NCBI RefSeq assembly: GCF_015277735.1
Contig: NZ_JADHDA010000003.1
Location: 124,001 to 188,000, forward strand
Reading direction: 5' to 3'
Source of the DNA: Psychrobacter sp. NG254
GTDB taxonomy: Bacteria > Pseudomonadota > Gammaproteobacteria > Pseudomonadales > Moraxellaceae
DNA: 64,000 nt
Position 1 is the first letter of the stretch. Each line of letters opens with the position of its first letter. The notes below the pieces were generated by a model. That model saw nothing but the letters and a program-made list of their open reading frames with translations, did not search any database and was not told the DNA's origin. The position numbers and the translations under genes are program-made. Below, in pieces: positions 1-14,943 of the stretch.

Positions 1-1
1 A

Positions 2-715
2 AGAGAGCTAATAAATAACGATCCAAACGAATCAATTGAAATTGAAAGTGGCACTCCTTTAACTATTCCATGTACTGTTAACGGGCAAACAATAAAATGG
101 GCTTTTATTCCTTATAATTATGAAGATAAAGTACGCAGGATTGTGATAGATAGAGAGCTAAATAAAGCAGGAATTAGTACTAGTATATTGATGAGTAATC
201 CGAACTATGCTCTTAGCAATTTGGAAGACCTTGTCATTCGCAAGCAAAAGACAATGCATACCATCTACGATAAATTAAAAGGAAAAATTAATCAGAATTC
301 TATGTTGTTGTATTCTGGTCCAGATTTACCTAATGATCTGAACGACTGTAAACCTTATCATACCTGTCATTATAGAAGCTTCTCCTCTAATTTAAACTAT
401 TACCATACTTGTCTTTGTATGTCTGGTTGTATATATACAGGTGATAGCGACTTCAAATGTTTTAAATTGAAAGATATCTATAAAGGGTATGTCAATAATG
501 TCGATATCGTTCAAGTACCTCATCATGGGTCAAAGCACAATTTCGATTTGCAAGCACTTGAAGGTTTCAGTAACGCGATTTGTCCCATTTCTCATAGCAC
601 TAATAATCGTGATAAACATCCTCATGCAGAAGTTGTGAAGAAACTAACTATAAACGGCTTTCATGTCATTTCCGTTAATGAGAATAGAAATTCTGAATTT
701 AGACAATTTATTTAG
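2..715 (+). CDS. MBL-fold metallo-hydrolase, ComEC/Rec2-like, C-terminal part (5' end outside window)
   Basis: The reading frame is open from the left edge to a TAG stop, so the gene starts before the window and only about 237 residues are visible. Seen: a TGDSD segment, then PHHGSKHNF, then a CPISHSTNN...HPHAEVV stretch. This order matches the C-terminal half of the metallo-beta-lactamase domain of ComEC/Rec2-related proteins, where the GD Asp and HHGS His residues bind metal. No membrane segments are visible, so this is probably a soluble stand-alone hydrolase rather than the competence channel, but the N-terminus is unseen. An internal GTG at 143 gives a possible but unlikely start. It lies 146 bp upstream of hsdR on the same strand, a position often taken by accessory genes in type I restriction loci. 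The DNA looks AT-rich. Substrate unknown. Confidence 0.7.
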   Translation, partial: RELINNDPNESIEIESGTPLTIPCTVNGQTIKWAFIPYNYEDKVRRIVIDRELNKAGISTSILMSNPNYALSNLEDLVIRKQKTMHTIYDKLKGKINQNSMLLYSGPDLPNDLNDCKPYHTCHYRSFSSNLNYYHTCLCMSGCIYTGDSDFKCFKLKDIYKGYVNNVDIVQVPHHGSKHNFDLQALEGFSNAICPISHSTNNRDKHPHAEVVKKLTINGFHVISVNENRNSEFRQFI

Positions 716-861
716 TTGGTCACTCTACTTGTCTAGTGGAGTAACAAGAGATCTGCCCAAAATTGCTTGCTCTGAAGATAAACAAGCAGATACAGCGTAG
801 TATTAGATTTGCTACTCTGATGACACAATATTAAATACTCAATTGCTTACCCTATTACTCA

Positions 862-3800
862 ATGAGTTCGGCTATGAATATTAACTCCAGCATCAACTTT
901 GCAGAAGAGTTCAGCTCAAAAATCCCTGCTTTAACTTTACTCACCACGCTGGGCTACGAATTTATTCCACCCAGTCAATGCAATGCCATGCGCTCAAAAA
1001 CAGTGTCTAATAAAGCCACTAATCAAGTGGTGCTATTGCCAATCATGCGTGCATTTTTAGCCGAGCAAACTTTTACGTTTGAAGGTAAGGCGCATCATTT
1101 ATCAGACAGTGCTATTGATAAAATCATGCACGAGCTAAATCCTGCCATGAACTTAGGGATGCAGGCTGCAAATGAAGCGCTATATAACGCCATGCTGTAT
1201 GGCGTGACCGTAACAGAGTTTATCGACGGCAAAAAAACTTCCCAAACTATCGCTCTGATAGATTGGAATAATATCGATAATAATAGCTTTCACGTTACTG
1301 AAGAGTTGGTCGTGCTCAATAGCGAGGGTACGAGTAGTCGTAGGCCTGATATCGTCTGCTTTGTAAATGGGCTGCCGCTAGCAGTGATCGAAGCCAAACG
1401 CCCTGACTCCAGTAGAGAGTGGCAATCGACCAATGCTCAAGCAGTGTCCCAGCATATTCGCAATCAAAAGCCGAAAGAAATCCCGCATCTATTTGCCTAT
1501 AGCCAGTTATTACTGGCGGTCAATGGTAATGATGGGTTGTATGCCACCTGCGGTACGCCTGAGAAGTTTTGGGCAAAATGGGTCGAAGAAGAGATCTCTG
1601 AGCCTGAGTTTCATCGTTTAAAGAACCAAGCGCTCAGGCCTAAGCAAATTGAGAATTTGTTTGCTCATCGTCCTACCTCTATCAAAGGTGAATATAAATC
1701 ATTGATTGCTGGCGGTGATCTAGCCGTCACCGACCAAGACCGCTTAATCATCAGTCTTTTGCAGCCCCAGCGTCTGCTTGAGATGACGCGCATGTTTACT
1801 TTGTTTGATAAAAAGGCTGGCAAAATTGTTGCTCGTTATCAGCAAGTCTTTGGTATCAAAGCCTTGATTGAACGTATCAGCACTTTTGACGGCTCTGATG
1901 GTAAGTCGGGTAGTCGGCAAGGCGGTGTCATTTGGCATACCACAGGTAGTGGTAAGTCCTTTACGATGGTTTTCTTCTCCAAAGCACTTATTTGGTTAGA
2001 GGAGCTCGCCAAGTGCCGTGTCATTATCGTCACCGACCGTGTTGATCTTGAAACTCAGCTTAGTAAAACCTTTGCTTCTGGTGGTGTGCTTAGTGATCGC
2101 GACAAAATGGATGCGATGGCAACTTCTGGTCGCCGCCTAGCGCAGCAAATCGGGCATGGTAATGAACGCGTTATCTTCTCTATTATTAATAAGTTTGGCT
2201 CAGCCGTTAAGTATGATGAATGTTATAACGACAGTCCAAACATCATCGTCATGGTCGATGAAGGTCACCGTAGCCAAAATGGTGAGAATAATATTCGCAT
2301 GGCGCAAGCCCTGCCAAACGCGGCTTTTATTGCCTTTACGGGTACGCCATTGCTCAAGGATGACAAGACCGAAAACAAATTCGGTAGCATCATTCACTCT
2401 TATACCATGCAGCAAGCGGTCAAAGATAAGACCGTTACCCCACTGTTATACGAAGAGCGTATCCCTGAGCTCAATACCAATGACCAAGCTATTGATGCTT
2501 GGTTTGACCGTATTACCCAAAAGCTTACTGATGATCAAAAAACTGACCTCAAACGTAAGTTCTCCCAAAAAGGTCAAATCTATCAGGTTGAAGGTCGTAT
2601 TGAGCTGATCGCTCATGACATCTCTGATCACTTCCAAAACTTTAAACAGCAGCACCTTAAAGGTCAACTGGCTTGTGATTCTAAAGCCTCAGCTATCCGC
2701 TATAAGATGGCGTTAGATAAGATTGGTAAAGTGACCTCAGTGGTCGCTATGTCACCACCTGATACCCGTGAAGGGCATGACACCGTCGATGGTGAGTCAA
2801 AAGACATTGTCCAGAATTGGTGGCAAGATAATGTCGCCAATCAGTATGGTGGTGACGAAAAAGCCTATACCAAAGCCATTATAGAAGCCTTTAGTCAAGA
2901 CGATGGTCCGGATATTATGATTGTCGTTGATAAGCTATTAACGGGCTTTGATGAGCCAAAGAATACCGTGCTGTATATCGATAAACCCCTAAAGCAGCAC
3001 AACCTCATTCAAGCGATTGCACGGGTAAACCGCTTGCATGAAAAGAAACGCTTTGGTTATCTGATTGACTATCGTGGCATCTTAAAAGAGCTGGATATCA
3101 CCATTGAGAAATACCAAGACTTAGCCGAGCGTACACAAGGTGGCTTCGATATCGAAGACCTTAAAGGTCTGTATAACGCGATGGATACTGAGTATAAGCA
3201 GCTACCCAGACTGCATAGCGAGCTGTGGGCGATATTCTCATCAGTGAAGAATAAACAGGATGGGCAGGCGTTAAGACAAGTGCTTGCACCAAAAATGCAG
3301 GAGATAGATGGTAGGGTAGTCGATACCAAGCTCAAAGAACGTGATGATTTCTATGCGGCTTTGACCACATTTTCTAACGCCATGAAAATTGCGTTGCAAT
3401 CGGCGTCTTTCTTTGAAGATAAATCATTTGATAGCAAGCGTGATCGCTACAAAGCCGATCTAAAAGCCTTTATCAATCTACGTAAGCAAGTGCGCGAGGA
3501 TGCTGATGAAACCATCGATTACGATGAGTATGAAGCAGATATTCGCAGCTTACTCGATAAGCATATTGCAGGGCTTGAGGTGAAAGAAGCAAAGGGCGTT
3601 TATCTAGTCGATAACTTAGGTAAGCTGGGAGAAAATGTTAAGCCTGAAGCGATGAGTGACGATGAAGCACGCAACCAAACCGATAAAATCACTGGTCGTG
3701 TCACTAAGATGATTGAGCAGGATTTGGCTGATGACCCTTATGCCCAAGAGTATTTTTCTAAATTGCTCAAGCAAGCGATTGCTGATGCTAAAGCCATGTT

Positions 3801-4197
3801 CGATGCACCCGTGAAGCAATACATGATGTTTGCTGACTTTGAGCAAGCCGTCAAAGACCGTGATGTCGCTGATGTGCCGAATGCGTTTATCGATGATAGT
3901 GGTAAGTTAAACAAACATGCCCAGGCGTATTTTGGTCTGTTTAAGCACTTATTTGATATTGATTTCTTGGTAGATAAAGATTTAGATAACGACAAGCTAG
4001 TCGCTTACGCCTTTGAGATTGATAATATCGTTAAAACAGCAGTGGCTGAGTATTCTATTAATCCAGCAGAAATTGAGAATGCTATTAGTGTCAAATTGCT
4101 GCCGATGTTATTTATGGATTTGGGTATCGATAAAGCGCAACAGCTCATCGAGGAAGTGCTAAAGATTACCCGTCTTGGACTTTCGAGAGACAAGTAG
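862..4197 (+). CDS. hsdR: Type I restriction endonuclease, R (HsdR) subunit
   Basis: The 1111-residue length is normal for HsdR, the motor and nuclease subunit that translocates and cleaves DNA when the HsdM2S complex finds unmodified sites. The N-terminal PD-(D/E)xK nuclease is visible as RPDIVCF followed by VIEAK (about D163, E177, K179). Superfamily 2 helicase motifs follow: Walker A TGSGKS near 361, DEGH near 466, AFTGTPL near 494, a LLTGFDEPK motif near 690 and QAIARVNR near 717. The rest is the helical HsdM-contacting tail. All catalytic residues looked for are present. The ATG at 862 has a poor ribosome site; an ATG at 874 is possible. hsdM and hsdS are not visible and would have to lie left of the window. 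A DUF45 peptidase follows after 28 bp, a common arrangement in type I loci. Confidence 0.95.
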   Translation: MSSAMNINSSINFAEEFSSKIPALTLLTTLGYEFIPPSQCNAMRSKTVSNKATNQVVLLPIMRAFLAEQTFTFEGKAHHLSDSAIDKIMHELNPAMNLGMQAANEALYNAMLYGVTVTEFIDGKKTSQTIALIDWNNIDNNSFHVTEELVVLNSEGTSSRRPDIVCFVNGLPLAVIEAKRPDSSREWQSTNAQAVSQHIRNQKPKEIPHLFAYSQLLLAVNGNDGLYATCGTPEKFWAKWVEEEISEPEFHRLKNQALRPKQIENLFAHRPTSIKGEYKSLIAGGDLAVTDQDRLIISLLQPQRLLEMTRMFTLFDKKAGKIVARYQQVFGIKALIERISTFDGSDGKSGSRQGGVIWHTTGSGKSFTMVFFSKALIWLEELAKCRVIIVTDRVDLETQLSKTFASGGVLSDRDKMDAMATSGRRLAQQIGHGNERVIFSIINKFGSAVKYDECYNDSPNIIVMVDEGHRSQNGENNIRMAQALPNAAFIAFTGTPLLKDDKTENKFGSIIHSYTMQQAVKDKTVTPLLYEERIPELNTNDQAIDAWFDRITQKLTDDQKTDLKRKFSQKGQIYQVEGRIELIAHDISDHFQNFKQQHLKGQLACDSKASAIRYKMALDKIGKVTSVVAMSPPDTREGHDTVDGESKDIVQNWWQDNVANQYGGDEKAYTKAIIEAFSQDDGPDIMIVVDKLLTGFDEPKNTVLYIDKPLKQHNLIQAIARVNRLHEKKRFGYLIDYRGILKELDITIEKYQDLAERTQGGFDIEDLKGLYNAMDTEYKQLPRLHSELWAIFSSVKNKQDGQALRQVLAPKMQEIDGRVVDTKLKERDDFYAALTTFSNAMKIALQSASFFEDKSFDSKRDRYKADLKAFINLRKQVREDADETIDYDEYEADIRSLLDKHIAGLEVKEAKGVYLVDNLGKLGENVKPEAMSDDEARNQTDKITGRVTKMIEQDLADDPYAQEYFSKLLKQAIADAKAMFDAPVKQYMMFADFEQAVKDRDVADVPNAFIDDSGKLNKHAQAYFGLFKHLFDIDFLVDKDLDNDKLVAYAFEIDNIVKTAVAEYSINPAEIENAISVKLLPMLFMDLGIDKAQQLIEEVLKITRLGLSRDK

Positions 4198-4225
4198 CCT
4201 AAGAGCAGCAAGAGGGTAGTAGGTA

Positions 4226-5050
4226 ATGACTGAGAATGGTGTGTTTTATTATGGTCAAGATAAAATTGACTATGAAGTTGTGCGTAAAGAAGTAACTTAT
4301 AAAGAAAAGATAAAACAGCTTGAAAGCGATCAGCTGATTGCTAAAAAGACCAAGCCTCGAAAAGTGGTTATCAAGGTACATCCTGATCAGCGTGTGGTTG
4401 TGACCGCACCTGTCGATGCTACCGATGAGGTGATTTATGATGCGATAATGAAACGTGCTCGCTGGATATGGCAAAGCCTACAGGACTTTGCCAAGCAACA
4501 AGATCATGTATTGCCCAAGCGCTATGTCAGCGGTGAGACCCAATTTTATCTGGGTCGTCGTTACGTGTTAAAAGTGATAACCAATATAGAAACTGCCAAT
4601 GTAATACATAGCACTGTGAAGCTTAGTCGCGGTAAGTTAAATATAGAATTGTCTGAAGTCGATTCTACATTAAATAGTGAAGAACGAACTGCTATCGTCA
4701 AAAGCCTAATTGATGAATGGTATAAAAATAAAGCCAAGCTTATCTTTATAGAACGCCTAGAGGTGGTATTACCTAAAGCAGCGTGGGTAACTGGTACGCC
4801 AGCTTTCAGACTGTTAGTTATGAAGAAGCAGTGGGGCAGCTGCTCTACTAAAGGCAATCTAATCCTTAATCCTCATTTGGTTAAAGCACCAAAGGAATGC
4901 ATCGATTACGTGATACTACATGAGCTGTGTCATATCGCTGAGCACAACCATAGCGAGCACTTCTGGCGGTTACTAATGCAAGTAATGCCGAACTGGAAAG
5001 AGGTAAAAGCGAGGCTTGATGGAATGGCTGAGCTTTATTTGAATGAGTGA
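4226..5050 (+). CDS. YgjP-like (DUF45) M48-family zinc metallopeptidase
   Basis: This 274-residue protein carries the metallopeptidase signature HELCHIAEHNHSEHFW near residues 232-247: His232 and His236 as zinc ligands, Glu233 as general base and His242 as the likely third ligand. An upstream WGSCSTKGNLILNPHL stretch is typical of the YgjP/DUF45 family. Residues about 45-95 (KVVIKVHPDQRVVVTAP...ARWIWQ) match the family's N-terminal part. There is no signal peptide, so it is cytoplasmic. It begins 28 bp after hsdR and is probably cotranscribed with it. Members of this family are known companions of hsdR, but their role is not settled; proteolytic control of HsdR is inference only. Catalytic residues look intact. 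Confidence 0.85.
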   Translation: MTENGVFYYGQDKIDYEVVRKEVTYKEKIKQLESDQLIAKKTKPRKVVIKVHPDQRVVVTAPVDATDEVIYDAIMKRARWIWQSLQDFAKQQDHVLPKRYVSGETQFYLGRRYVLKVITNIETANVIHSTVKLSRGKLNIELSEVDSTLNSEERTAIVKSLIDEWYKNKAKLIFIERLEVVLPKAAWVTGTPAFRLLVMKKQWGSCSTKGNLILNPHLVKAPKECIDYVILHELCHIAEHNHSEHFWRLLMQVMPNWKEVKARLDGMAELYLNE

Positions 5051-5156
5051 GCATAGACAGTGTAATGATATACAGTGATAGAAATCTAGATTTAATTTGA
5101 TATTGTTAGAGCAGAGTGCAACTAATACACTTAAAACTTAATTAAAAGGGATTATT

Positions 5157-7001
5157 ATGGGAAAAAGTCATACTGAAACAGCTAGTTGGACTGTAGCAAA
5201 CTTAGTAAGTGCAATAACAGACAACTCAAATAATAAAAAAGTTTTGATACCTAAGTTTCAAAGAAACTTAGTATGGCGCCCACACCAAAAAAAAGCTTTC
5301 ATCGACTCTATTAAGAAAGGTTTCCCCGTTGGAGCGCTTCTTTTATTTGACGCAGGGGCAAGAGATAATATTGTAACCTACAGTCTCATTGATGGTCTGC
5401 AGAGAGCGACTACACTAAAGCAATATTCAGAAAAGCCGACAAGCAGTCTATTTTTTGATGATACGAATATTGATTTTAAACTGCTAAAAGATCTGAAAGA
5501 TGCAATAGATAAAGAAAATTTAGAACTAGATCAATTATCGATGACTATCGTAAGCTGGGTAACCAATCTAAGCGGCTTTCAAGAGTCAGAAGGGTTTAGC
5601 TCGTTTGATTTAGTGAGTCATCTAGATGAAAGTTTAGATTTGAATATGGATATGGAAAAGGCAAAAAAGCTACAAAGGAAGATGATATCTTTTATAAAAA
5701 AGATAAAAGATGATGCCGATATAAGCTCATTTAATATACCTCTATTGATCTATAGTGGTCCTGACGATAACTTACCAATAATTTTTGAAAGACTCAACTC
5801 TAAGGGTACGCAGCTAAGTAAATACCAAATTTATGCTGCGGCATGGAACGACGCACCTTTTGGAATATCAAATACAAAGATAATCGATAAGATTCAGGCG
5901 AAATACGAGTCTCTGATTACCGAGGGTTATGAAGTTGATAACTATGATTCAGATACTTTTAATACTTCGAAATTTTCTTGCTTTGAATATATTTTTGGGT
6001 TTGGGAAGCTTCTTACAGAAGATTATCCTTTATTGTTTTCAGCTAGCTCTAAAGAGGCACAAGAAGACTCTATAGGTTTCAATATAGTTAATTTATGTTT
6101 GGGGAAAGCTTTTAATGAGATGAGAACACTGCCTAAGGATTTTTCAAAATATAAAATCGAAGATTTAGAGACATGTATTTTAGATGCTATTGATTTTGTG
6201 AATAACTGTCTAAAAACTCAGCTAGCTTTGAAAATGAATAACAAAAAAACTCCACCTGTTATTCATACTGAAATGCAAATTGTTTCGATGATTGGAAAAG
6301 CTTTTCACTCTAAATATGATGAAAATCTCAAAGTTAGAGATTCTTGGAAAGCAAATGGAGTTAAGCTAAAAGAAAATTTAAAGTTTCACTATCTTTTTGA
6401 TATTTTAAAAGAATCATGGAAGGGTTCAGGAGATACAAAGGCGTATAATGCGATTCATGATGATCATTACTATAAGCCAGTTGATAGAAAGCAGTGGGAA
6501 AGTGTGTTTGAAGACTGGTTAGCTAGTGACTTACAAAAAAGAGAAACTAAAAGAATAACTATCAAGCCACAAAGTACATTGTTTTTAAAATATATTTATG
6601 TTCGCGTCCTACCAGTAGAACATCAAACATCAGAGCTAACGTTCGATATCGAACATTTAGTTCCTGTAGATAGACTGAAAAAAATTGCGCTAGGGGAAGG
6701 AGAAGGGCTTCCAATTAGTGCCTTTCCTAACTTGTGCTTATTGGCCTCAGAGCTTAACAGAAAAAAAGCCGACAAAACCTTCTATGAGTATTATGTAAAC
6801 TCTGTAGACAATCAAGAGATGACTGATGAGCAAGCGAATAAGCAGATTAATAGTATTGAACAGTATTCCTTTACTACGCGAAATGATCTTGATTTTGTAA
6901 AGAATGGTCAATCATTTAATTCTGAAACTTATGAGGAGTTTCTAACAAACAGGTTTAGGCTACTGACGGAAAAATTCTTTGATCTTTATGATATATATTA
7001 A
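5157..7001 (+). CDS. DUF262/DUF1524 protein, GmrSD-like (candidate type IV restriction / anti-phage nuclease)
   Basis: This 614-residue protein starts at ATG 5157 behind a good ribosome site (AAAAGGGA, 5-bp gap). The N-terminal DUF262 (ParB/sulfiredoxin-like, NTP-binding) domain shows IPKFQRNLVWRPHQ near 33-46 and LIDGLQRATTL near 82-92, matching the family's PxxQR...W and DGQQR motifs. The C-terminal DUF1524 HNH-type nuclease shows DIEHLVP (His500) and FPNLCLLASELNRKKADK near 523-541. This architecture is that of GmrSD and SspE-like enzymes, which restrict modified phage DNA. It lies 106 bp after the DUF45 gene on the same strand and may have its own promoter. The sequence looks more AT-rich than hsdR, suggesting separate acquisition. 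The modification it senses cannot be read from sequence. Confidence 0.82.
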   Translation: MGKSHTETASWTVANLVSAITDNSNNKKVLIPKFQRNLVWRPHQKKAFIDSIKKGFPVGALLLFDAGARDNIVTYSLIDGLQRATTLKQYSEKPTSSLFFDDTNIDFKLLKDLKDAIDKENLELDQLSMTIVSWVTNLSGFQESEGFSSFDLVSHLDESLDLNMDMEKAKKLQRKMISFIKKIKDDADISSFNIPLLIYSGPDDNLPIIFERLNSKGTQLSKYQIYAAAWNDAPFGISNTKIIDKIQAKYESLITEGYEVDNYDSDTFNTSKFSCFEYIFGFGKLLTEDYPLLFSASSKEAQEDSIGFNIVNLCLGKAFNEMRTLPKDFSKYKIEDLETCILDAIDFVNNCLKTQLALKMNNKKTPPVIHTEMQIVSMIGKAFHSKYDENLKVRDSWKANGVKLKENLKFHYLFDILKESWKGSGDTKAYNAIHDDHYYKPVDRKQWESVFEDWLASDLQKRETKRITIKPQSTLFLKYIYVRVLPVEHQTSELTFDIEHLVPVDRLKKIALGEGEGLPISAFPNLCLLASELNRKKADKTFYEYYVNSVDNQEMTDEQANKQINSIEQYSFTTRNDLDFVKNGQSFNSETYEEFLTNRFRLLTEKFFDLYDIY

Positions 7002-7079
7002 ACGTCCATTCCTAAAAGTTCCAATAAAAACATATTGAACTCTGTTCAAAAAAAATAAAATGTCAGTTATATACTAATT

Positions 7080-7108
7080 AAAATAACCCGCATCAGGCGG
7101 GTTATTTT
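7080..7108. terminator. Bidirectional intrinsic terminator
   Basis: An 11-bp perfect stem (AAAATAACCCG / CGGGTTATTTT) with a 7-nt loop lies between the convergent DUF262 and SMP-30 genes. A-rich and T-rich flanks suit termination from both sides. Confidence 0.85.
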
Positions 7109-7134
7109 AAGTTCAGTTCTGAAAAACTTTCTAA

Positions 7135-8034
7135 TTATGGCGTACCTGCATGCCCCACCTTAACTTGCACAGCTAACATACGTCCTTTAGTTTCTGCCTT
7201 GCGAGAGGCCTCATCCCAGTCTGGAGCCGCGCACATAAATAGTGTCTTACCATCTTGTCCACCAAGAGTAACCGCAAAGATACCATCAGGTGCAGTATCG
7301 ATAGTTTCTAAAATTTCACCACCCTCTGCTATGCGTACCGCTCGCTGATTTATGGTATCTGCGATCCACACAGCACCCTCGGCATCCAAGGTCAAACCAT
7401 CAGGTAATATGCTAGCATTTTCTATACGTAGACCAAGATTTGGCTCATCACCTAATTCTCCAAAATTAGCAAAGTCACGCTTTTCTCCGAGGCTACCATC
7501 CTCCTTGATATCAAACTGCGTGACTTTATTACCAAATAGCTCGTTAACGATCAATGTTTTCTGATCTGCAGAGATAACCATCCCATTTGGAAATGCCAAT
7601 CCTTCAGCGACAACCTGTGAGCTTCCATCAGGCTTAACCAACACAAGCCCTGTGTTTTCATGGTCAGCGCCACCCATCAAATCAAAACCAAAGTTGCCGA
7701 CATAAGCATTACCATTGGCTGAAACCACCATGTCATTTGCATGACCACCGCAATGCTCCCAAATATCAGCGTGAACGACCAAGTTACCATCATTTTCTAG
7801 TCGTAAGACTTTGCGGTCTTTCATCGACACAACCAGCAAACGCCCATCAGGCAACCATCCTAAACCGGAAGGTTGCTGTTCAACATGGATGATTTTCTCT
7901 GCTACTCCTTCATTGTTAACTCGATAAACGCCTTGAGTATAGAAATCGACAAACCATAGCGCATTTTGATACCAGCGAGGTCCTTCTAAATAGTGAAAGC
8001 CATCAACAGCAACTTTTATTTCATATTTCGACAT
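7135..8034 (-). CDS. SMP-30/gluconolactonase/LRE family protein
   Basis: This approximately 299-residue beta-propeller of the SMP-30/gluconolactonase family probably hydrolyses a sugar or hydroxy-acid lactone using a divalent metal. Visible family features are YLEGPRW near the N-terminus (Glu as metal ligand), PSGLGWLPDGRLLV, GGHANDMVV (Asn/Asp ligands), FPNGMVIS and a final PDGLTLDAEGAVWIAD. Two ATGs are possible. The one at 8034 sits 6 nt after AAGGAAG and is preferred over the ATG at 8040, which abuts that site. There is no signal peptide. The gene follows the iron alcohol dehydrogenase by about 50 bp, so the two likely form an operon for oxidation of an alcohol or sugar derivative. The substrate is unknown. 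Confidence 0.85.
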   Translation of the reverse strand: MSKYEIKVAVDGFHYLEGPRWYQNALWFVDFYTQGVYRVNNEGVAEKIIHVEQQPSGLGWLPDGRLLVVSMKDRKVLRLENDGNLVVHADIWEHCGGHANDMVVSANGNAYVGNFGFDLMGGADHENTGLVLVKPDGSSQVVAEGLAFPNGMVISADQKTLIVNELFGNKVTQFDIKEDGSLGEKRDFANFGELGDEPNLGLRIENASILPDGLTLDAEGAVWIADTINQRAVRIAEGGEILETIDTAPDGIFAVTLGGQDGKTLFMCAAPDWDEASRKAETKGRMLAVQVKVGHAGTP

Positions 8035-8083
8035 AATCATCTTCCTTGATTGATAGACAAAATTATTTAAACAATATTTCTTA

Positions 8084-9247
8084 TCAGGCTATTTCTTCAT
8101 ATATTGCAGTGACTTCCTCTAAAGTCATATCTTTGGGATTGGTCGCGATTAGTCGTGCATAGGTATTGATAACTATGTCGGCTAAGGCAGGAATATCGTT
8201 CTTTGTAATATCCAATTCACTCAAATGGTATTTAAGACCACTGTTTTCCAAAAACATTTTTAGTTGACTAATAAATGAAGTCGCTGCGTCTAAATCTGTC
8301 ATTCCAGCTGTCTGAGTAGGCATGACAGCACGAGCAAGCTCTGCGTATAGAGGAGCAGCTTCTGATAAGTTAAATGTGAAAACACCACACATGACGAGTG
8401 CATTAGCATGTCCATGTGGAATGTGGAAGTTAATACTAAGAGGGTAGGAGAGCCCGTGAACAGCGGCTACAGAGGCATTGACGAAGGCGATGCCTGCCAG
8501 TGTGGAACCTAACAGCATATCGGCACGAGCATCAATATCGTCACCTTGGTTTAACACTTTTTCAAAATTATTCCAAAGCATCTGTAAGCCTTTTAGGGCT
8601 AGTGCATCTGAAATAGGATTCTTTTTAGTACGACTTGTATAGGCCTCAATACAATGCACCATGGCATCAAGCGCGGTTGCTGCAGTGATATGACGTGGTA
8701 ATTTTAGTGTCAGTGTTGCATCTAAAATGGCGACGTCAGGTAAGATTTTAGGAGTATAAATAGCTTTTTTACTGCCATCTTTTGCGGTAATCACGGAGAC
8801 AAAGGTAGACTCTGCACCCGTACCAGCAGTGGTCGGTATGGCAAATAGCGGCAGTTTTTTGAACCCACTAATATCTCTATCTAAAATATCGTTAACGGAC
8901 TGAAAGTCGTTTGGATACAAAGCGACAATCTTCGCTGTATCAATAGAGCTTCCGCCCCCTAAGCCAATGATCAAGTCACATTGATTGTCTCTTGCACGCT
9001 CAATAGCGCTTTCAACAATTTCAATGGGCGGGTCTGCAACGACACTATCGAACACAACGACATTAACACCGGCTTCCTGTAAGGATTGCTGAGCGATATC
9101 GACATAGCCTAATTCGGAGATACCAGCATCTGTAATAATGATGGCTGATGTTGCAGAATATTGTTTTGCTAAAACACCTAGCTTTTGGCGCATGCTGTCA
9201 GCTTCGCTGACAATATGACCATTAGTATAAAATTCAATCCCTGTCAT
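8084..9247 (-). CDS. Iron-containing (group III) alcohol dehydrogenase
   Basis: This 387-residue protein has the usual length for the family, which reduces or oxidises short alcohols/aldehydes with NAD(P). The nucleotide loop GGGSSID is at 97-103. Metal ligands are readable as Asp194, His198 (TALDAMVHCIEAY), His264 (AAVHGLSYPL) and His278 (HIPHGH). The start at 9247 (MTGIEFY) is chosen because AAGGAAG lies just upstream; a longer frame to 9298 has no ribosome site. It is the first gene of an operon with the SMP-30 lactonase and is divergent from the TRAP binding protein, suggesting a shared catabolic role. Maleylacetate reductase, lactaldehyde reductase and butanol dehydrogenase relatives cannot be told apart from sequence alone. 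Confidence 0.88.
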   Translation of the reverse strand: MTGIEFYTNGHIVSEADSMRQKLGVLAKQYSATSAIIITDAGISELGYVDIAQQSLQEAGVNVVVFDSVVADPPIEIVESAIERARDNQCDLIIGLGGGSSIDTAKIVALYPNDFQSVNDILDRDISGFKKLPLFAIPTTAGTGAESTFVSVITAKDGSKKAIYTPKILPDVAILDATLTLKLPRHITAATALDAMVHCIEAYTSRTKKNPISDALALKGLQMLWNNFEKVLNQGDDIDARADMLLGSTLAGIAFVNASVAAVHGLSYPLSINFHIPHGHANALVMCGVFTFNLSEAAPLYAELARAVMPTQTAGMTDLDAATSFISQLKMFLENSGLKYHLSELDITKNDIPALADIVINTYARLIATNPKDMTLEEVTAIYEEIA

Positions 9248-9751
9248 TTTATTCTTCCTTGATATAGGCGCACTTAGATATTGTTTTCTTAAATTCAATC
9301 AATGCCATAGTAAGAATGCTTTTATATCGATTAGACTCTTATAAGGCATCAATGCATTTTAATGGTACTAGGTACCTATTTATCTTATTAAACTTCTTTA
9401 TCTCCAATGCATTTTTTATAAGAAAATCGCTTGTAGTGGGTGACTAAAATAACGCGTTAAAAGAATCTGGATATCAGAAAAATTATGCAACGTCTAAATT
9501 TCTTAGATCACCTAACTAGCCGATGTTTGTAAGATATTACATTAGCATAAACATCAGAGAATAGTCATTAAATGATTTGACAGCTATCACTTTAGTTGAT
9601 AATTTCAGGTGAGTATTTAAGTACACGTTAAGTATATATTGACCTACCTATGTGCAACCATTACTAATGGTGTATTTAACTTACTCGTCAAATACTATAA
9701 AAACGTAAGTTAAATTAATGAACTTATGACTACTATCAAAAGGAATTGATA
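9248..9751. promoter_or_regulatory. Divergent regulatory region between the ADH operon and TRAP gene
   Basis: This is about 500 bp without a gene. It holds an 11-bp perfect inverted repeat, ATTTAACTTAC (9674-9684) and GTAAGTTAAAT (9705-9715), with centres 31 bp apart and a TATAAA-like box in the spacer, ending 36 bp before the TRAP start. There is also a direct repeat CAATGCATTTT at 9350-9360 and 9405-9415, and a GGTAC-type palindrome near 9364-9376. A possible promoter, TTGACA (9577-9582) with GATAAT (9598-9603), has a short 15-bp spacer. No regulator gene is adjacent. Confidence 0.5.
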
Positions 9752-10798
9752 ATGAAATTAGCACCCATTTTTTCGATAAGTGTGCTAGCCGCGATGGGCC
9801 TTTTAGGTTGTTCAAATCAATCTAGTAATGGTACGACTTCCTCAGAAGAGATAACTGTTTTACGTTTCTCACATTTCTATCCTGCAACCTCTGATATTAA
9901 TGAGGAGATTTTTGAACCTTGGGCAAAAAAAATCGAAGCTGACTCGGGTGGGCGTCTCAAAGTTGAAGTATATCCTTCGGCCACCATTAGTAAAGCGGAT
10001 ACAGCTTATGAGTCTGCTGTAAAAGGAACCATTGATATTGGCTCACAAGTACAAGGTTATACAAGTGGTCGATTCCCACTATCTCAGATTGCAGAGCTTC
10101 CAGGGTTATCTAACTCATCAACACAAACAGGCTGTATGCTACAAACCCTTTATGATAACGGTACGATTGCTGATGAGTATGAGGATTCACACTTGCTCTT
10201 TATGTTTGCCACAGGTCCTGGAACCTTGCATAGTACCGACAAATTGATAAGAACTCCTGAGGATATGAGAGGTATGCGTATTCGTAGGCCCTCAGCAGTT
10301 GCAGGTGATATCATAGAGAGTATGGGAGCCTCCCCGGTTGGGCTACCTGCCAATGACATATATACTTCTTTACAGCGTGGAGTCGTTGATGGATTGAGCT
10401 TTCCATGGGAAGCTATGGAAACTTTCAAACTAAATGAGTTGACGAAGTATCATACCAATATGCCATTTTATAGTTCTGCTTTGATGGTCACTATGAATAG
10501 TGATAAGTATGAAAGTCTGCCAGAAGATTTAAAACAAGTTATTGATGACAATTCAGGTATGGCCCTTAGCAAAAAAGTAGGGGCTATGTGGGATAAGACT
10601 TATTCGACACAGCTACAAGCAGCCATCGATCAAGGAGACGAAGTTGTCGATATTCTAGACCCACTCAATGACCCAGACTGGAAAGGTCCACTTGAAAAAG
10701 GTACAAAGAAATATCTTGATGATGTAGAGTCTTTAGGACTAGATGCTTACGGGGTCTATGATAAGGCTAAAGAAGCTAGCGTAGTCTGTAAAGTGTAA
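9752..10798 (+). CDS. TRAP transporter DctP-family solute-binding lipoprotein
   Basis: This 348-residue protein starts at ATG 9752, 7 nt after AAAAGGA; a TTG two codons earlier is less likely. The N-terminus MKLAPIFSISVLAAMGLLGC is a lipoprotein signal with lipobox LLGC (Cys20), so it is membrane-anchored in the periplasm. The DctP fold signature is seen as MRGMRIRRPSA, then GASPVGLPANDIYTSLQRGVVDG: the Arg is the usual carboxylate clamp and the second motif is typical of the family. TRAP systems need DctQ and DctM membrane subunits, but neither is next to it; a terminator follows at 10844. It is therefore an orphan binding protein that may use a distant permease. It may supply the substrate for the divergent dehydrogenase/lactonase operon (inference). 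Confidence 0.88.
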   Translation: MKLAPIFSISVLAAMGLLGCSNQSSNGTTSSEEITVLRFSHFYPATSDINEEIFEPWAKKIEADSGGRLKVEVYPSATISKADTAYESAVKGTIDIGSQVQGYTSGRFPLSQIAELPGLSNSSTQTGCMLQTLYDNGTIADEYEDSHLLFMFATGPGTLHSTDKLIRTPEDMRGMRIRRPSAVAGDIIESMGASPVGLPANDIYTSLQRGVVDGLSFPWEAMETFKLNELTKYHTNMPFYSSALMVTMNSDKYESLPEDLKQVIDDNSGMALSKKVGAMWDKTYSTQLQAAIDQGDEVVDILDPLNDPDWKGPLEKGTKKYLDDVESLGLDAYGVYDKAKEASVVCKV

Positions 10799-10843
10799 TC
10801 TTATAAAAATTTTAGTTAAAATATAGCTGAACTGACTAAACTG

Positions 10844-10875
10844 AAAAAGCCTCAACTTATGAGCTGAGGCTTTTT
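10844..10875. terminator. Bidirectional intrinsic terminator
   Basis: An 11-bp stem (AAAAAGCCTCA / TGAGGCTTTTT) with a 10-nt loop and A/T runs on both sides lies between the TRAP gene (+) and the small-protein operon (-). Confidence 0.88.
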
Positions 10876-10923
10876 CTATTTTTCTGATTCAAATCTAGCA
10901 GGTACTCATCACTATCTAAAGCT

Positions 10924-11244
10924 CTACCTACCTAAGACAAGCTGTCCACCAGAAAAGCTGATACACCCGTCACAGAACCAAGAATTTAAACGTCTTGCAT
11001 AAGGTACATCTGCTGGGACATCTAATTGATAGGGACGACCACAGTACTCACAGTGTATGTCATCTAAATAAACCTGACATTTTGCAAGCGTAGCAAATAA
11101 TGCATCAAGCTCCATGTCGTGGTCGCAACAAAGTATTTTCAAATGCGCTATATAATCACTAGGGGACACATAAGACCAATACTCATGGCACAAATGCTTT
11201 GCTGTATCCTCTAGAGCTAAATCAAAGACGAAGTTCATACTCAT
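10924..11244 (-). CDS. Small zinc-ribbon-like hypothetical protein (integrase operon cargo)
   Basis: This roughly 106-residue protein starts MSMNFVFDLALED, chosen because AAGGAGG lies 5 nt before ATG 11244; a frame extending to 11331 overlaps the previous gene and lacks a ribosome site. I do not recognise the family. The C-terminal half has two CxxC pairs (CEYCGRPYQ and WFCDGCIS), which looks like a small zinc ribbon. The first half is acidic and probably helical, with further Cys residues (CHEYW, CCDHD). It lies 10 bp after the 96-residue gene, likely the last gene of the xis-int operon before the terminator at 10844. Possible roles include a DNA- or protein-binding accessory of the element; nothing in the sequence decides this. 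Confidence 0.65.
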   Translation of the reverse strand: MSMNFVFDLALEDTAKHLCHEYWSYVSPSDYIAHLKILCCDHDMELDALFATLAKCQVYLDDIHCEYCGRPYQLDVPADVPYARRLNSWFCDGCISFSGGQLVLGR

Positions 11245-11254
11245 AATATCCTCC

Positions 11255-11545
11255 TTAGTATCCATAGCCAGTTTGTGGTAAAAGTCCGTAAAGCTCACTC
11301 TGTAGCTGACTACACATATCATCAACGGCATAGCCGAGATTAGCGTCTAAGCGCTTCTGAACCCATATGCGCAGCGCCATATGATTATCAAAGCAACTAT
11401 CCACATTTAAGAAACGAGCCAAACCACTACCTGACTGAATACAGAGCTCACAAATGAGATAATTAGCAATATTATCTGCGCCATTACTGACATAGCCACT
11501 AGGCTTAAACGTTGCATGCAGCTTATCGTAATCAATCATTTTCAT
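11255..11545 (-). CDS. Small hypothetical protein translationally coupled to the integrase
   Basis: This 96-residue protein starts MKMIDYDKLHATF. Its ATG overlaps the integrase TGA (ATGA, 11542-11545), indicating translational coupling; AAGGAG lies 11 nt upstream. No family is recognised. It has a central CELC pair and reads ICELCIQSGSGLARFL followed by a region with two Trp/Arg-rich helices, without signal peptide or membrane segment. Together with the next gene it forms the cargo of a small integrated element. It could be an excision/replication accessory or a defence component; function unknown. Confidence 0.65.
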   Translation of the reverse strand: MKMIDYDKLHATFKPSGYVSNGADNIANYLICELCIQSGSGLARFLNVDSCFDNHMALRIWVQKRLDANLGYAVDDMCSQLQSELYGLLPQTGYGY

Positions 11546-12744
11546 CGTGACGTCTCCTTGTCAGTAGATACCTGAGCAATCTGACTGCGATTGACCAATG
11601 CTTCAAATGCACTACCATCCTGCCTAGTCATATTCGGTACGTAACGGCTATACGTGTTGAATAGCATCTTAGTCGTAGAGTGTCCCATTTGGCTGGCTAT
11701 CCACTCAGGACTTTCGCCAGCAGCTAACCATAACGTCGCTGCAGTATGACGGCTCTGATAGGCATTACGCTTCTTGAGACCCAAGATCTTAAGAGTAGGG
11801 TGCCAAACACGCTTATTCACGTTGTTATAGTCAAGTGGTTCACCTGTATGCGCGCAAAACACATAGTCAGATCGCTTATAAGTGATCGTCTGTTGTTCCT
11901 TCAGAGCATCATAGACCCAAGGTGACATTTGAATCGCACGGTAAGATTCCTGAGTCTTAGGAGGAACAATCTTGCCTTTGACATAAGCTTGTTTGATCAC
12001 AATCTCACGTCGATCAAAGTCAATGTTCTCCCATGTCAAACCATCAATCTCACTCGTACGCATCCCTGTGAAAAATCGTACCAGATAATAATTGCGATAG
12101 TCTGTTCTCACACCATTAATAAACGTCCAAACCTCATTCAGTGTGAATGGTTGAATATCCGTTTTAGGTTGCTTGAGCGCATTGATATCGTAATAAGGGT
12201 TGTCAAACTGATAGCGTTTAGCCGCTTCTTTTAGTATCATACCTAAAGGTACCATGATCGAATTGATGCGTGCCGCTGACAGATGTTTGTTAGCTTTTCC
12301 GTACGTTACTTTGGCGAGCGATGAACGGAAGGCTAATACATCTGTCTTTTTTATGAGATGAATGGGCTTAGTCCCAAACTTAACAATCAAGTACATATCA
12401 ATAATCTCCTTTATTTTGCGCTTATAAGTATCACGCCATTCAATTTCTTTTTCAGAAAACCATAATTTTGCAAACTGCTCAAAGGAAGGTGAATTAGTGT
12501 TGATACATTCCTTGCGATCGTTCAACGCTACCATTTCTGCCGCTTTATCACTTTTTGGAAAGTACTTAGCGTAGTTGAATAAACCTAGGATGATTTCTGC
12601 TTCCATTTTCTCAATCACTTTTTCAAGCTTTTTGCGATTCGCTGGCGTGTCCGTCAGGTTTGTCGTCTCCCGACAGCGTATACCCATATAATAAAAATCG
12701 ACGAATAGCATATTGCTACCTCTGCGGGTTCTAATACTAGCCAT
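11542..12744 (-). CDS. Tyrosine recombinase / integrase of a tRNA-Val-associated element
   Basis: This is a 400-residue site-specific recombinase. The N-terminus (ASIRTRRGSNMLFVDFYY...CRETTNL) matches the arm-DNA-binding domain (DUF3596 type) of phage-like integrases. A SAM-like core-binding domain spans about 85-185. The catalytic domain shows TGMRTSEIDGLTW (first Arg), SRHTAATLW (Arg-His), MGHS and the nucleophile Tyr in TYSRYVP. All active-site residues looked for are present, so it may be functional. It starts 11 bp after the Xis-like gene and overlaps the next small gene by 4 bp. The 3' end of tRNA-Val, the typical target of such enzymes, is about 850 bp upstream. Confidence 0.92.
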   Translation of the reverse strand: MASIRTRRGSNMLFVDFYYMGIRCRETTNLTDTPANRKKLEKVIEKMEAEIILGLFNYAKYFPKSDKAAEMVALNDRKECINTNSPSFEQFAKLWFSEKEIEWRDTYKRKIKEIIDMYLIVKFGTKPIHLIKKTDVLAFRSSLAKVTYGKANKHLSAARINSIMVPLGMILKEAAKRYQFDNPYYDINALKQPKTDIQPFTLNEVWTFINGVRTDYRNYYLVRFFTGMRTSEIDGLTWENIDFDRREIVIKQAYVKGKIVPPKTQESYRAIQMSPWVYDALKEQQTITYKRSDYVFCAHTGEPLDYNNVNKRVWHPTLKILGLKKRNAYQSRHTAATLWLAAGESPEWIASQMGHSTTKMLFNTYSRYVPNMTRQDGSAFEALVNRSQIAQVSTDKETSR

Positions 12745-12755
12745 CCTATTTCTCC

Positions 12756-12971
12756 TTATTGTAGTGCCATGGCGTTGATGCTACCGGCGATGCCAGTGCG
12801 CATATCTTTTTCAATCTCTTCCCAAATGTACAAAATCTTACGACCACCGAACGGGCGTATATAATGAATGCCCTCGATAAGCACACTATCCTTGAGCTCA
12901 TTACGGATAGTACGAGGGTTATATTTGATGAGCTCAGAAAGCTCTTGGGTAGTTAGGTAGGTATGTGACAT
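12756..12971 (-). CDS. Excisionase-like MerR/HTH_17-type DNA-binding protein
   Basis: This protein of about 71 residues starts MSHTYLTTQELSEL. ATG 12971 is chosen for its AAGGA site 7 nt upstream; a longer frame to 12992 has none. The stretch LTTQELSELIKYNPRTIRNELKD resembles the helix-turn-helix of excisionases and MerR-like DNA-binding proteins, followed by a GIHYIRPFGGRKILYIWEEIEKDM segment typical of small Xis-like proteins next to integrases. It is the first gene of the operon with the integrase and is divergent from the XRE regulator, with the operator-like repeats between them. Role as recombination directionality factor is inferred. Confidence 0.72.
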   Translation of the reverse strand: MSHTYLTTQELSELIKYNPRTIRNELKDSVLIEGIHYIRPFGGRKILYIWEEIEKDMRTGIAGSINAMALQ

Positions 12972-13030
12972 AATAAATTCCTTGTAAGCCAATTAAATAA
13001 CTAGGTTGTTTTATCAAAATAACAAATAAT

Positions 13031-13098
13031 TCTATAAAAGTAATTTGTTATTCGATAGAAGTACTTTACTAGCTATCGTTAGTCGATACAAGTACTTT
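13031..13098. promoter_or_regulatory. Three phased operator-like direct repeats between xis and the XRE gene
   Basis: Three 16-bp copies occur: TCTATAAAAGTAATTT (13031-13046), TCGATAGAAGTACTTT (13052-13067) and TCGATACAAGTACTTT (13083-13098). Their starts are 21 and 31 bp apart, close to two and three helical turns, so the sites would face the same side of DNA. They lie in the 150-bp gap between the divergent Xis-like and XRE genes, where a Cro/CI-type switch would bind. A TATCG at 13074 is an inverted half-copy of the CGATA part. Confidence 0.6.
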
Positions 13099-13121
13099 TT
13101 TAGTCTATTAAGGAATTATTA

Positions 13122-13346
13122 ATGATTTTATGTAATTTACCAGTGCTACTAGCTGAACGACGTATGAAGGTTGCAGATCTAATAAGAATGACAGGAATTA
13201 GCAAGTCGACAGTGCACAAGATATATAACGAACAGACTTCAAGAATAGATTTTGACACTATGGATAAAATTTGTGAGGCACTAGATATTGAAGTAGGTGA
13301 TTTATTTACTTATGTACCTAACGAGCCACTAGATAAAGAGAAGTAA
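13122..13346 (+). CDS. XRE (Cro/CI)-family transcriptional regulator
   Basis: This 74-residue protein is essentially a single helix-turn-helix domain: VLLAERRMKVADLIRMTG then ISKSTVHKIYNEQTSRIDFDTMDKICEALDIEVGDLF, the classic HTH_26/Cro pattern with recognition helix around STVHKIYN. ATG 13122 has AAGGA 7 nt upstream. It is transcribed away from the xis-int operon, with three operator-like repeats in the shared gap, so it is likely the repressor that keeps the integrated element quiet and controls itself (inference). No C-terminal cleavage domain is present, so induction would not follow the LexA-type self-cleavage route. Confidence 0.85.
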   Translation: MILCNLPVLLAERRMKVADLIRMTGISKSTVHKIYNEQTSRIDFDTMDKICEALDIEVGDLFTYVPNEPLDKEK

Positions 13347-13546
13347 ATTAATTTTAAAGTGATTTTAGATAATCTAGGGTAGAGGTCGAAAGTGCTACTC
13401 TGAAAGAAAGGCAAAATAGAGAGCAGGCGCAACTTAGGCACAATTTAGGCACACACGTTTTTTGATGACGTTTGCGGAAAGTGAGAAAAGAGGAAATTTG
13501 CATCGACGTATAGTTTCCTTTTTCGCTACAGCCCATATATTACAGA
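13347..13546. other. Probable attachment-region DNA of the integrated element
   Basis: This gene-free stretch lies between the XRE regulator and the 3' side of tRNA-Val. It contains a tandem near-repeat AACTTAGGCACA (13431-13442) and AATTTAGGCACA (13442-13453), exactly one helical turn (11 bp) apart, which could be arm-type integrase or Xis sites. A loose inverted pair (AGAGGAAA near 13486 and TTTCCTTTTT near 13513) follows. I could not find a second copy of the tRNA 3' end in the window that would mark the other attachment site. Confidence 0.4.
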
Positions 13547-13577
13547 CAAAAAAAGCCCCAATCGTGAGATTGGGGCT
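13547..13577 (-). terminator. Terminator downstream of tRNA-Val
   Basis: A 10-bp perfect stem (AGCCCCAATC / GATTGGGGCT) with a 4-nt loop is followed on the minus strand by a run of seven T, 12 bp past the tRNA 3' end. Confidence 0.9.
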
Positions 13578-13588
13578 TTCTAAATATT

Positions 13589-13665
<77 letters not shown>

Positions 13666-13678
13666 ATTTAGGTTGAGC

Positions 13679-13706
13679 ATTTTAGCAAGTTTCTCAGACT
13701 TTGCAA
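13679..13706 (-). promoter_or_regulatory. tRNA-Val promoter
   Basis: On the minus strand TTGCAA (13706-13701) and TAAAAT (13684-13679) are spaced 16 bp apart, ending 13 bp before the mature tRNA 5' end. Confidence 0.7.
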
Positions 13707-13965
13707 GTCTTTTTTATCGTAATTCTAATTTATTATCATAATATTTGGTATTGAGATTTATATTAAGGCTTTTCGTGTATTTTTTCTAAACATTTAATTT
13801 AATTGGTGTAGTTTTTCTTGTTAATAAGAGAGCGAACTTTAATGGATAAGAGCCTATAACTGGTATGATATCTCTCTAACTGAAGTGAGAGTCATAATAA
13901 TAATGACTTAGAGTCAGTCATGCCTAACAGCGTTGAATAGAAACGAGACATAGTCGGAGAATAAT

Positions 13966-14943
13966 ATGGGCTTATTGGTCGATGGACAGTGGCAGGACAA
14001 ATGGTATGACACAAAAGCCAATGGTGGCCGCTTTCAACGTGAGGATGCCGGTTTTAGGAACTGGGTGACCGTGGATGGCAATGCAGGACCAACAGGTATT
14101 GAGGGTTTTAAAGCCGAACCTGACCGTTACCATCTATATGTGTCGCTCGCCTGTCCTTGGGCGCATCGTGCTTTGATTTATCGTAAGCTCAAAGGTTTGG
14201 AGGATATCATCCCGATATCTGTAGTGCATCCCTTTATGGCAGAGTATGGTTGGACATTTGCAGCGGGCGAAGGTGTGGTTACCGATCCGAATATCCATGC
14301 AGACTATGCCTATGAGCTCTATACCAAGGCCAAGCCAGATTATACAGGGCGCGTCACGGTACCTATTTTATGGGACAAGAAGACCAATACGATCGTTAGT
14401 AATGAGTCGTCAGAAATCATCCGTATGTTTAATTCAGCTTTTGATGAGGTTGGCGCAGTAGCAGGTAATTTTGTACCATCAGAGCTGTTGAGCAACATCG
14501 ACGATATCAATACCTTTGTCTATTCTACGATTAATAATGGGGTGTACAAAACTGGATTTTCAACCACACAAGAGGCCTACGAAGAGGCAGTGGTTGAATT
14601 GTTTGCAGCGCTAGATACACTTGAAGGTCGCTTAGCAACTCAGCGTTATTTGGTGGGTAATACGATCACTGAGGCCGATTGGCGACTGTTTACCACTTTG
14701 GTACGTTTCGACGCCGTTTATGTTGGGCATTTTAAATGTAATCTGCGTCGTATTGTTGATTATCCAAATCTTTGGGGCTATCTACGTGATTTATACCAAG
14801 TGCCTGGCATCGCTGAGACGGTGAATATGGTGCACATCAAGCAGCATTATTACACCAGTCACGCCAGTATAAATCCTACGCGTATCGTCCCTGTCGGCCC
14901 TGTGATTGATTTTACGACAGCGCATGATCGTGCTCAGTTATAG
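13966..14943 (+). CDS. yqjG: Glutathionyl-hydroquinone reductase (YqjG/ECM4 family)
   Basis: This 325-residue protein of the Xi-class glutathione transferases reductively removes glutathione from glutathionyl-hydroquinones using a Cys. The active site SLACPWAHRALI is seen with Cys63. Family landmarks also present are VVHPFMAEYGWTF, a VPILWDKKTNTIVSNESSEI glutathione-binding stretch, and the C-terminal helical region EADWRLFTTLVRFDAVYVGHFKCN with YPNLWGYLRDLYQ. There is no signal peptide. The 300 bp upstream contain no gene; ATG 13966 has GGAG nearby. It stands alone and converges on hemB with a shared terminator. A soluble detoxification or lignin/quinone-metabolism role is typical of the family. 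Confidence 0.93.
   Translation: MGLLVDGQWQDKWYDTKANGGRFQREDAGFRNWVTVDGNAGPTGIEGFKAEPDRYHLYVSLACPWAHRALIYRKLKGLEDIIPISVVHPFMAEYGWTFAAGEGVVTDPNIHADYAYELYTKAKPDYTGRVTVPILWDKKTNTIVSNESSEIIRMFNSAFDEVGAVAGNFVPSELLSNIDDINTFVYSTINNGVYKTGFSTTQEAYEEAVVELFAALDTLEGRLATQRYLVGNTITEADWRLFTTLVRFDAVYVGHFKCNLRRIVDYPNLWGYLRDLYQVPGIAETVNMVHIKQHYYTSHASINPTRIVPVGPVIDFTTAHDRAQL

Follow-up and report, generated by a model that had tools for sequence, protein, structure and literature searches.

What do two small genes of no recognised family do beside the integrase of an integrative element, and where does that element end? The question is raised by a 64,000-nucleotide stretch of Psychrobacter sp. NG254 (the window; positions 124001-188000 of contig C13 in the 3.33-Mb source genome, G000), in which genes for an integrase, an Xis-like protein, a divergent repressor and two small proteins lie on the 3' side of tRNA-Val(GAC), at 10924-13589. 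The original prediction took this to be a compact element with the two small genes as cargo. The best explanation of the whole, with a probability of about 0.6, is instead that the genes form one end of an island of about 56 kb, and that the repressor and the two small genes (named here cI, small1 and small2) make up a portable cassette governing xis-int. The module itself, the attachment repeat, the conservation, the linkage, the gene overlap and purifying selection are all shown by the sequences. The regulatory role of small1 and small2 is suggested by linkage, and its chances stand about even.

The genes lie where the original prediction had placed them, and all five open reading frames (ORFs) of the module are intact. 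The tyrosine integrase (int; 11542-12744, minus strand, 400 residues) matches the Pfam families Arm-DNA-bind_2 (5.8e-22) and Phage_integrase (9.3e-18). Beside it (12756-12971, minus strand) is a helix-turn-helix (HTH) protein of 71 residues from its ATG, with weak HTH matches only, whose position and size suggest an Xis role. Divergent from xis-int is an XRE repressor of 74 residues (cI; 13122-13346, plus strand; HTH_26, 4.7e-23). On the other side of int are small1 (11255-11545, minus strand) and small2 (10924-11244, minus strand), encoding acidic proteins of 96 and 106 residues. The longest ORF of small2 is 135 codons (10924-11331) and overlaps small1; the conserved start, immediately preceded on its 5' side by AAGGAGG, gives 106 residues. 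In the window the start of small1 overlaps the stop of int by 4 nt; of 55 relatives, 42 share this 4-nt overlap, 11 have one of 14 nt and two have none. The translational coupling to int claimed earlier is, with overlap in 53 of 55 relatives, plausible.

The extent of the element is indicated by a direct repeat. The right attachment repeat (13519-13638) comprises a terminator and the 3' 50 nt of the integration target, tRNA-Val (13589-13665, minus strand), and ends at the anticodon loop. This 120-bp sequence recurs, with 117 of 120 positions identical, at C13:81540-81659 (window coordinate about -42,460), an offset of 55,979 bp with both copies on one 530-kb contig. The module is therefore the right end of an island of about 56 kb that includes the type I restriction genes of the window, and the five genes very probably serve as its integration-and-control end. 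Two marks of a tRNA-targeting island are present: an integrase gene adjoins the tRNA gene, and the 3' end of the tRNA is repeated at the distant edge. An integrase-driven element on the 3' side of tRNA-Val, as first proposed, is thus borne out, and so is the suspicion that it extends further to the left and contains the defence genes; its size is revised from 2.7 to about 56 kb, which places restriction and nitrate-assimilation genes on the island. A weaker third copy of the repeat, at 38041-38107, has the terminator part only.

Partial tRNA copies, covering the last 50 or 51 nt of the gene, were found in 9 of the 25 sequence sets tested, with additional shorter ones in G016 and G018. Where partial copy, full tRNA and int lie on one joined stretch, the distance from partial to full copy is about 60 kb (G029), 46 kb (G010) and 39 kb (G021). 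To the right of the distal copy, C13:81660-82003 has counterparts of 82-87% identity in the distant relatives G003, G009, G016 and G028 and has no ORF of 100 codons; this conserved stretch is read as the putative left end of the element and may hold integrase arm sites. The 200 bp to the left of the distal copy resemble tRNA-Val-adjacent right ends in G009 and G010, and in G009 and G023 repressor genes or remnants adjoin tRNA-Val without an integrase; these are therefore read as stacked insertions in one tRNA. The 3' half of tRNA-Val occurs in two versions among relatives (the tRNAs are about 90% identical), as if islands bring differing halves that replace that of the host.

Relatives of int occur in 33 of 57 genomes. 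The class with at least 81% identity adjoins tRNA-Val in 12 of 36 genus genomes, with differing cargo (the G026 copy is split across two contigs), a recurrence that exceeds chance. Nine others (G002, G004, G008, G009, G013, G018, G023, G028 and G035) keep tRNA-Val intact, and the stretch of each that was read directly has no integrase of this family. Presence of the genes at this tRNA in all relatives, with no empty site, had been named as the outcome that would count against an insertion, and it is not what was observed. The comparison with strains lacking the insertion, proposed with the prediction, has these nine to draw on but yielded no clean empty site: none is a demonstrated pristine one, at least two (G009 and G023) keep repressor genes or remnants, and G002 gave none because the left flank of its tRNA matches the source genome at scattered places. 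Most of the islands compared have different sequences beyond about 10,915 on the left; G003, G010, G025 and G026 have about 4 kb more in common. In several tRNA-Val islands homology ends near the small2 stop, at C13 position 134915 in G024 and 134939 in G015 and G021. The class of about 60% identity is mostly found beside tRNA-Gly(GCC), where the source genome has a second complete module (C13:484-487 kb; locus L053, C13:475001-495000). In the third class, of about 54% identity, small1-small2 stand behind cI in the repressor operon, divergent from xis-int, and no tRNA was found in the eight stretches scanned.

A search of a public genome set gave 127 candidate stretches, 90 of them encoding small2; the 80 listed loci, all from Psychrobacter, were taken for analysis. 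The partners of small2 were small1, int and cI in 66, cI only in 10, small1 only in two, small1 and int in one, and none in one. All 76 matches to cI (profile E <= 1e-20) in 1.09 Mb fall within 3.5 kb of small2. Sixty of the 80 loci were scanned for tRNAs, and 54 of them have tRNA-Val or tRNA-Gly near small2, at a mostly near-constant distance. The ten loci with cI only all have the 770-residue gene of another, multi-gene recombinase set (cut by the contig end in L259); two mapped loci of this kind have a 189-residue gene, then the 770-residue one, then a third whose product is related to the L296 protein with the Phage_integrase domain. A similar set in L295 and L296 has small1 in place of small2. 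One small2 stands behind a different integrase near tRNA-Leu (Phage_integrase, with Arm-DNA-bind_3 below its cut-off). The constant partner of small1 and small2 is thus the repressor, and their status as cargo was rejected on this linkage in favour of membership in a conserved integration and control module.

The linkage extends beyond the genus. In a survey of 299 genomes of the bacterial family (Moraxellaceae), 83 have small2 and 152 have small1; 77 of the 83 belong to the genus, and the matches in the others are weaker. A renewed search of all 69 small1-bearing genomes outside the genus gave 119 rows, from which 40 loci with flanks of about 4 kb were taken (rows 32-79 minus eight: two fetched before and six unviewed, in G077, G088, G116, G120, G124 and G149), and 30 more with 1.5-kb flanks, one G175 place being in both sets. 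Rates for cI use the 40 only, because 26 of the 30 short-flank loci have int and no cI, flanks of 1.5 kb being too short to decide. In the 40, cI is present in 36. Of these, 27 are direct divergent pairs of cI and small1 whose domain matches lie 168-369 bp apart, in stretches that lack an integrase of the window's family, and in nine xis-int is located between cI and small1. The 40 loci carry a near-identical P4-type integrase (16), an integrase of the window's family (10), Rep3 (4), relaxase (5), HipA (8) or none of these (7), with overlaps; the P4-type integrase is 94-100% identical and convergent with small1, and is therefore counted as one recent lineage. In loci without int, small1 in most cases faces cI across a single short intergenic region; in those with int, this operon has xis-int ahead of small1. 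The simplest account is that xis-int was fitted into a control cassette.

Plasmids carry the cassette as well. Among 72,556 plasmid records, one small1 query matched 290 (286 Acinetobacter, 4 Moraxella) and a second matched 11 (8 Psychrobacter, 3 Moraxella), the relatives being annotated as hypothetical protein among the matches listed. The 290 are not independent, because the first query derives from the lineage with the P4-type integrase; on many Acinetobacter plasmids the small1 relatives are near-identical (104 of the 290 records at 99% or more), and this plasmid-borne lineage has therefore spread recently. On plasmid-like contigs of the genus and of another genus, cI, small1 and sometimes small2 lie beside Replicase, Rep3, ParA, MobA_MobL or Relaxase genes. 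One sample, of 20 regions, was hand-picked for variety.

How the module might work is suggested by its arrangement. The integrase would recombine an attachment core that runs from the anticodon loop of tRNA-Val to its 3' end; the island would supply its own 3' half and terminator, so that the tRNA is kept intact, and the displaced half would mark the far left end. Between cI and xis-int are three operator-like direct repeats resembling TCGATAnAAGTACTTT, with spacings of 21 and 31 (13026-13103). Of 63 int modules, 36 have exact AAGTACTT upstream of cI, as opposed to 0.9% of randomised sequences, and 11 of 19 cassettes without the window's integrase have a copy there with one mismatch. By binding these putative operators between divergent promoters, cI would keep xis-int-small1-small2 off until release. 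small1 and small2 would then be accessory regulators, such as a co-repressor, an anti-repressor or a sensor of host state, and cI-small1-small2 a portable cassette found also on plasmids and beside other recombinases.

In small2 a Cys4 motif (C65-x2-C68 ... C91-x2-C94) is invariant in all 60 rows of an alignment of the window's own sequence with 59 of 71 distinct ones (for small1, 54 rows: its own and 53 of 64 sequences). The predicted structure of small2 (pLDDT 86.9, pTM 0.73) has a three-helix part and a zinc-ribbon-like end, that of small1 (pLDDT 79.2, pTM 0.69) is all-helical, and the Cys pairs and three-helix part of small2 would suit a nucleic-acid-binding regulator. The median isoelectric point (pI) is 4.8 for each. 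Median ratios of non-synonymous to synonymous substitution (dN/dS) of 0.16 for small2 and 0.19 for small1 (18 sequences each; pairs with pS above 0.1, 140 and 147 pairs) indicate purifying selection. As the original prediction had it, the proteins resemble nothing recognisable: neither has a significant match in Pfam, NCBIfam, PHROGs (a scan covering the five module proteins) or PADLOC. A plant zinc finger against small2 (Pfam, E 0.6) and Cas5_IIId against small1 (E 0.036) were taken as chance, and a rubredoxin match to small2 (E 0.03) in a sequence search of solved structures as merely a common Cys pattern. The structure prediction that had been proposed thus gave models but no significant fold match, which is not evidence for a new fold; VIA Z maxima were 3.7 for small2 and 4.7 for small1. 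A phage origin of small1 and small2 was rejected, since no relative was found in viral contigs by pattern-seeded scans or in 50,697 phage records; these negatives and the PHROG scan of the five module proteins are also what bears on whether the island is a prophage or phage satellite with capsid, packaging or phage replication genes. In another genus, a 388-residue protein (L300:5504-6670) has a small2-like N-terminus and a long C-terminal part of no recognised kind.

Other roles for these genes have been weighed. They might encode anti-host-defence (for example, anti-restriction) proteins, made early when any element of this pool enters a cell and freed by the repressor only after entry or induction. 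The acidity of both proteins, the presence of small1 on integrative elements and plasmids alike, and the restriction genes on the window's island would suit this, but the want of any significant match to PADLOC, Pfam, PHROG or NCBIfam models, the absence of both proteins from the phage records, and an invariant Cys4 motif and three-helix part closer to a nucleic-acid binder make it unlikely. Accessory factors for recombination, acting as directionality or synapsis partners of int, would explain the gene overlap in 53 of 55 loci and the mostly near-constant distance of small2 to tRNA-Val or tRNA-Gly. They would not explain why small1, both on plasmids and in 27 of 40 loci, pairs with cI where the window's integrase is absent, nor why the third class has both genes in the repressor operon, and this role is more doubtful than the last.

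Slightly less credible again is a stability module of the toxin-antitoxin style formed by cI, small1 and small2. A small HTH protein does adjoin two small genes of no recognised family on mobile DNA, and HipA-like genes are near small1 in eight of 40 loci; yet small1 or small2 may be found singly with cI, neither matches a toxin family, and in integrase modules both trail int. Least credible by some way is the reading of 10924-13589 as a minimal island in itself, or as an inert remnant. Although the homology of several relatives stops near 10,915, no attachment-site copy was found near 10.9 kb by a direct-repeat search of 1-14,500 or by blastn of the tRNA region, and the matching partial tRNA is 56 kb away, outside the window. 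A left boundary there was rejected on these grounds, and a remnant accords poorly with five intact ORFs, the small ones under purifying selection.

A large island with a cI-small1-small2 control cassette at its end thus remains the preferred explanation, and several observations weigh against it. Kinship of the sequences inflates the 36 of 63 for AAGTACTT, and its exact form is absent upstream of cI from all 11 third-class modules and all 19 cassettes without the window's integrase; the operator is therefore not common to all. small2 has no match in the 72,556 plasmid records and is missing from some modules (L185, L291 and L292), and four of the 40 small1 loci and four of the 80 small2 loci lack cI, contig ends cutting some of them short. 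Neither small protein has a fold match at E <= 0.001. The 56 kb may represent several insertions, nested or stacked, since between 82 and 131 kb the homology to relatives is fragmented. That the integrase recombines, that the repeats act as operators and that small1 and small2 regulate are what we infer. A wider proposal is tentative, and we consider it rather less probable than not: that mechanically unrelated elements of the bacterial family (islands with a tyrosine integrase at tRNA-Val and tRNA-Gly, elements with the P4-type integrase, the multi-gene recombinase set and Rep/Mob plasmids) use one exchangeable control cassette, in which an HTH_26 repressor is joined by small1, small2 or both, and which has repeatedly been fitted to the recombinase or replicon at hand. 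Co-resident elements might then sense or silence one another.

Genomic islands that target a tRNA gene by means of a tyrosine integrase are a well-known class, and ICEBs1 (ImmR/ImmA) and SXT (SetR) are integrative elements under repressor control. Ogr/Delta proteins are small Cys4 zinc-finger activators of phages. Like tRNA-targeting islands in general, the present one has an integrase beside the tRNA, a partial tRNA at the far end, variable cargo with restriction genes, and stacked insertions; unlike them, it keeps two small uncharacterised genes as fixed members of its integration module. As in ICEBs1 and SXT, an XRE repressor is near or divergent from the excision genes, but its partners are small1 and small2, which have no family match, and no ImmA-type protease or SetCD was seen. 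small2 recalls Ogr/Delta as a short Cys4 protein on mobile DNA; however, it has no match to their Pfam model at E up to 1. Some cassette copies adjoin a trio of genes of 187-189, 770-774 and about 1084 residues, the largest product having a Phage_integrase domain, which may be akin to Gamma-Mobile-Trio (GMT) elements; the window's module, in contrast, has a single 400-residue integrase. A literature search, of titles and abstract openings, turned up a review bearing on tRNA-targeting islands (PMC2704930) and found no paper on the cI-small1-small2 module.

The island itself is ordinary in kind, and the new part is the common cI-small1-small2 cassette. Two families without a significant library match regularly accompany a single repressor family on islands and plasmids of a bacterial family. 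The cassette is a testable candidate for how such elements time their movement, and small1 and small2 can serve as a marker for integrase modules and island ends in Psychrobacter and its relatives.

The cargo was surveyed by Pfam on part of the island and by PADLOC on three cargo proteins. Its variable part within the window (1-10915) begins with the end of a metallo-beta-lactamase-fold protein and includes HsdR (862-4197), a YgjP metallopeptidase (4226-5050), a GmrSD_N protein (5157-7001), two genes judged by eye to be lactonase-like and alcohol dehydrogenase-like, and DctP (9746-10798). HsdM and HsdS lie just left of the window, and with HsdR, YgjP and GmrSD_N (862-7001) form a type I restriction cluster on the island. 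Elsewhere the cargo includes a nitrite reductase, a major facilitator superfamily (MFS) transporter, a kinase/phosphatase protein, a molybdopterin oxidoreductase, a TP-methylase and a GntP permease. Relaxase and type IV secretion genes, which an integrative and conjugative element would carry, were absent from the island proteins scanned, which cover only part of the cargo and were not searched for these specifically. Relatives have only parts of the cargo, and the island may therefore be composite. Inside it, at C13:111628-117568, is a recombinase-like gene set. One of its products, of 1172 residues, carries a Phage_integrase domain and shares 25% identity with the 1084-residue protein of L296; distant relatives of this set adjoin cI/small1 or cI/small2 in L155, L158, L295 and L296.

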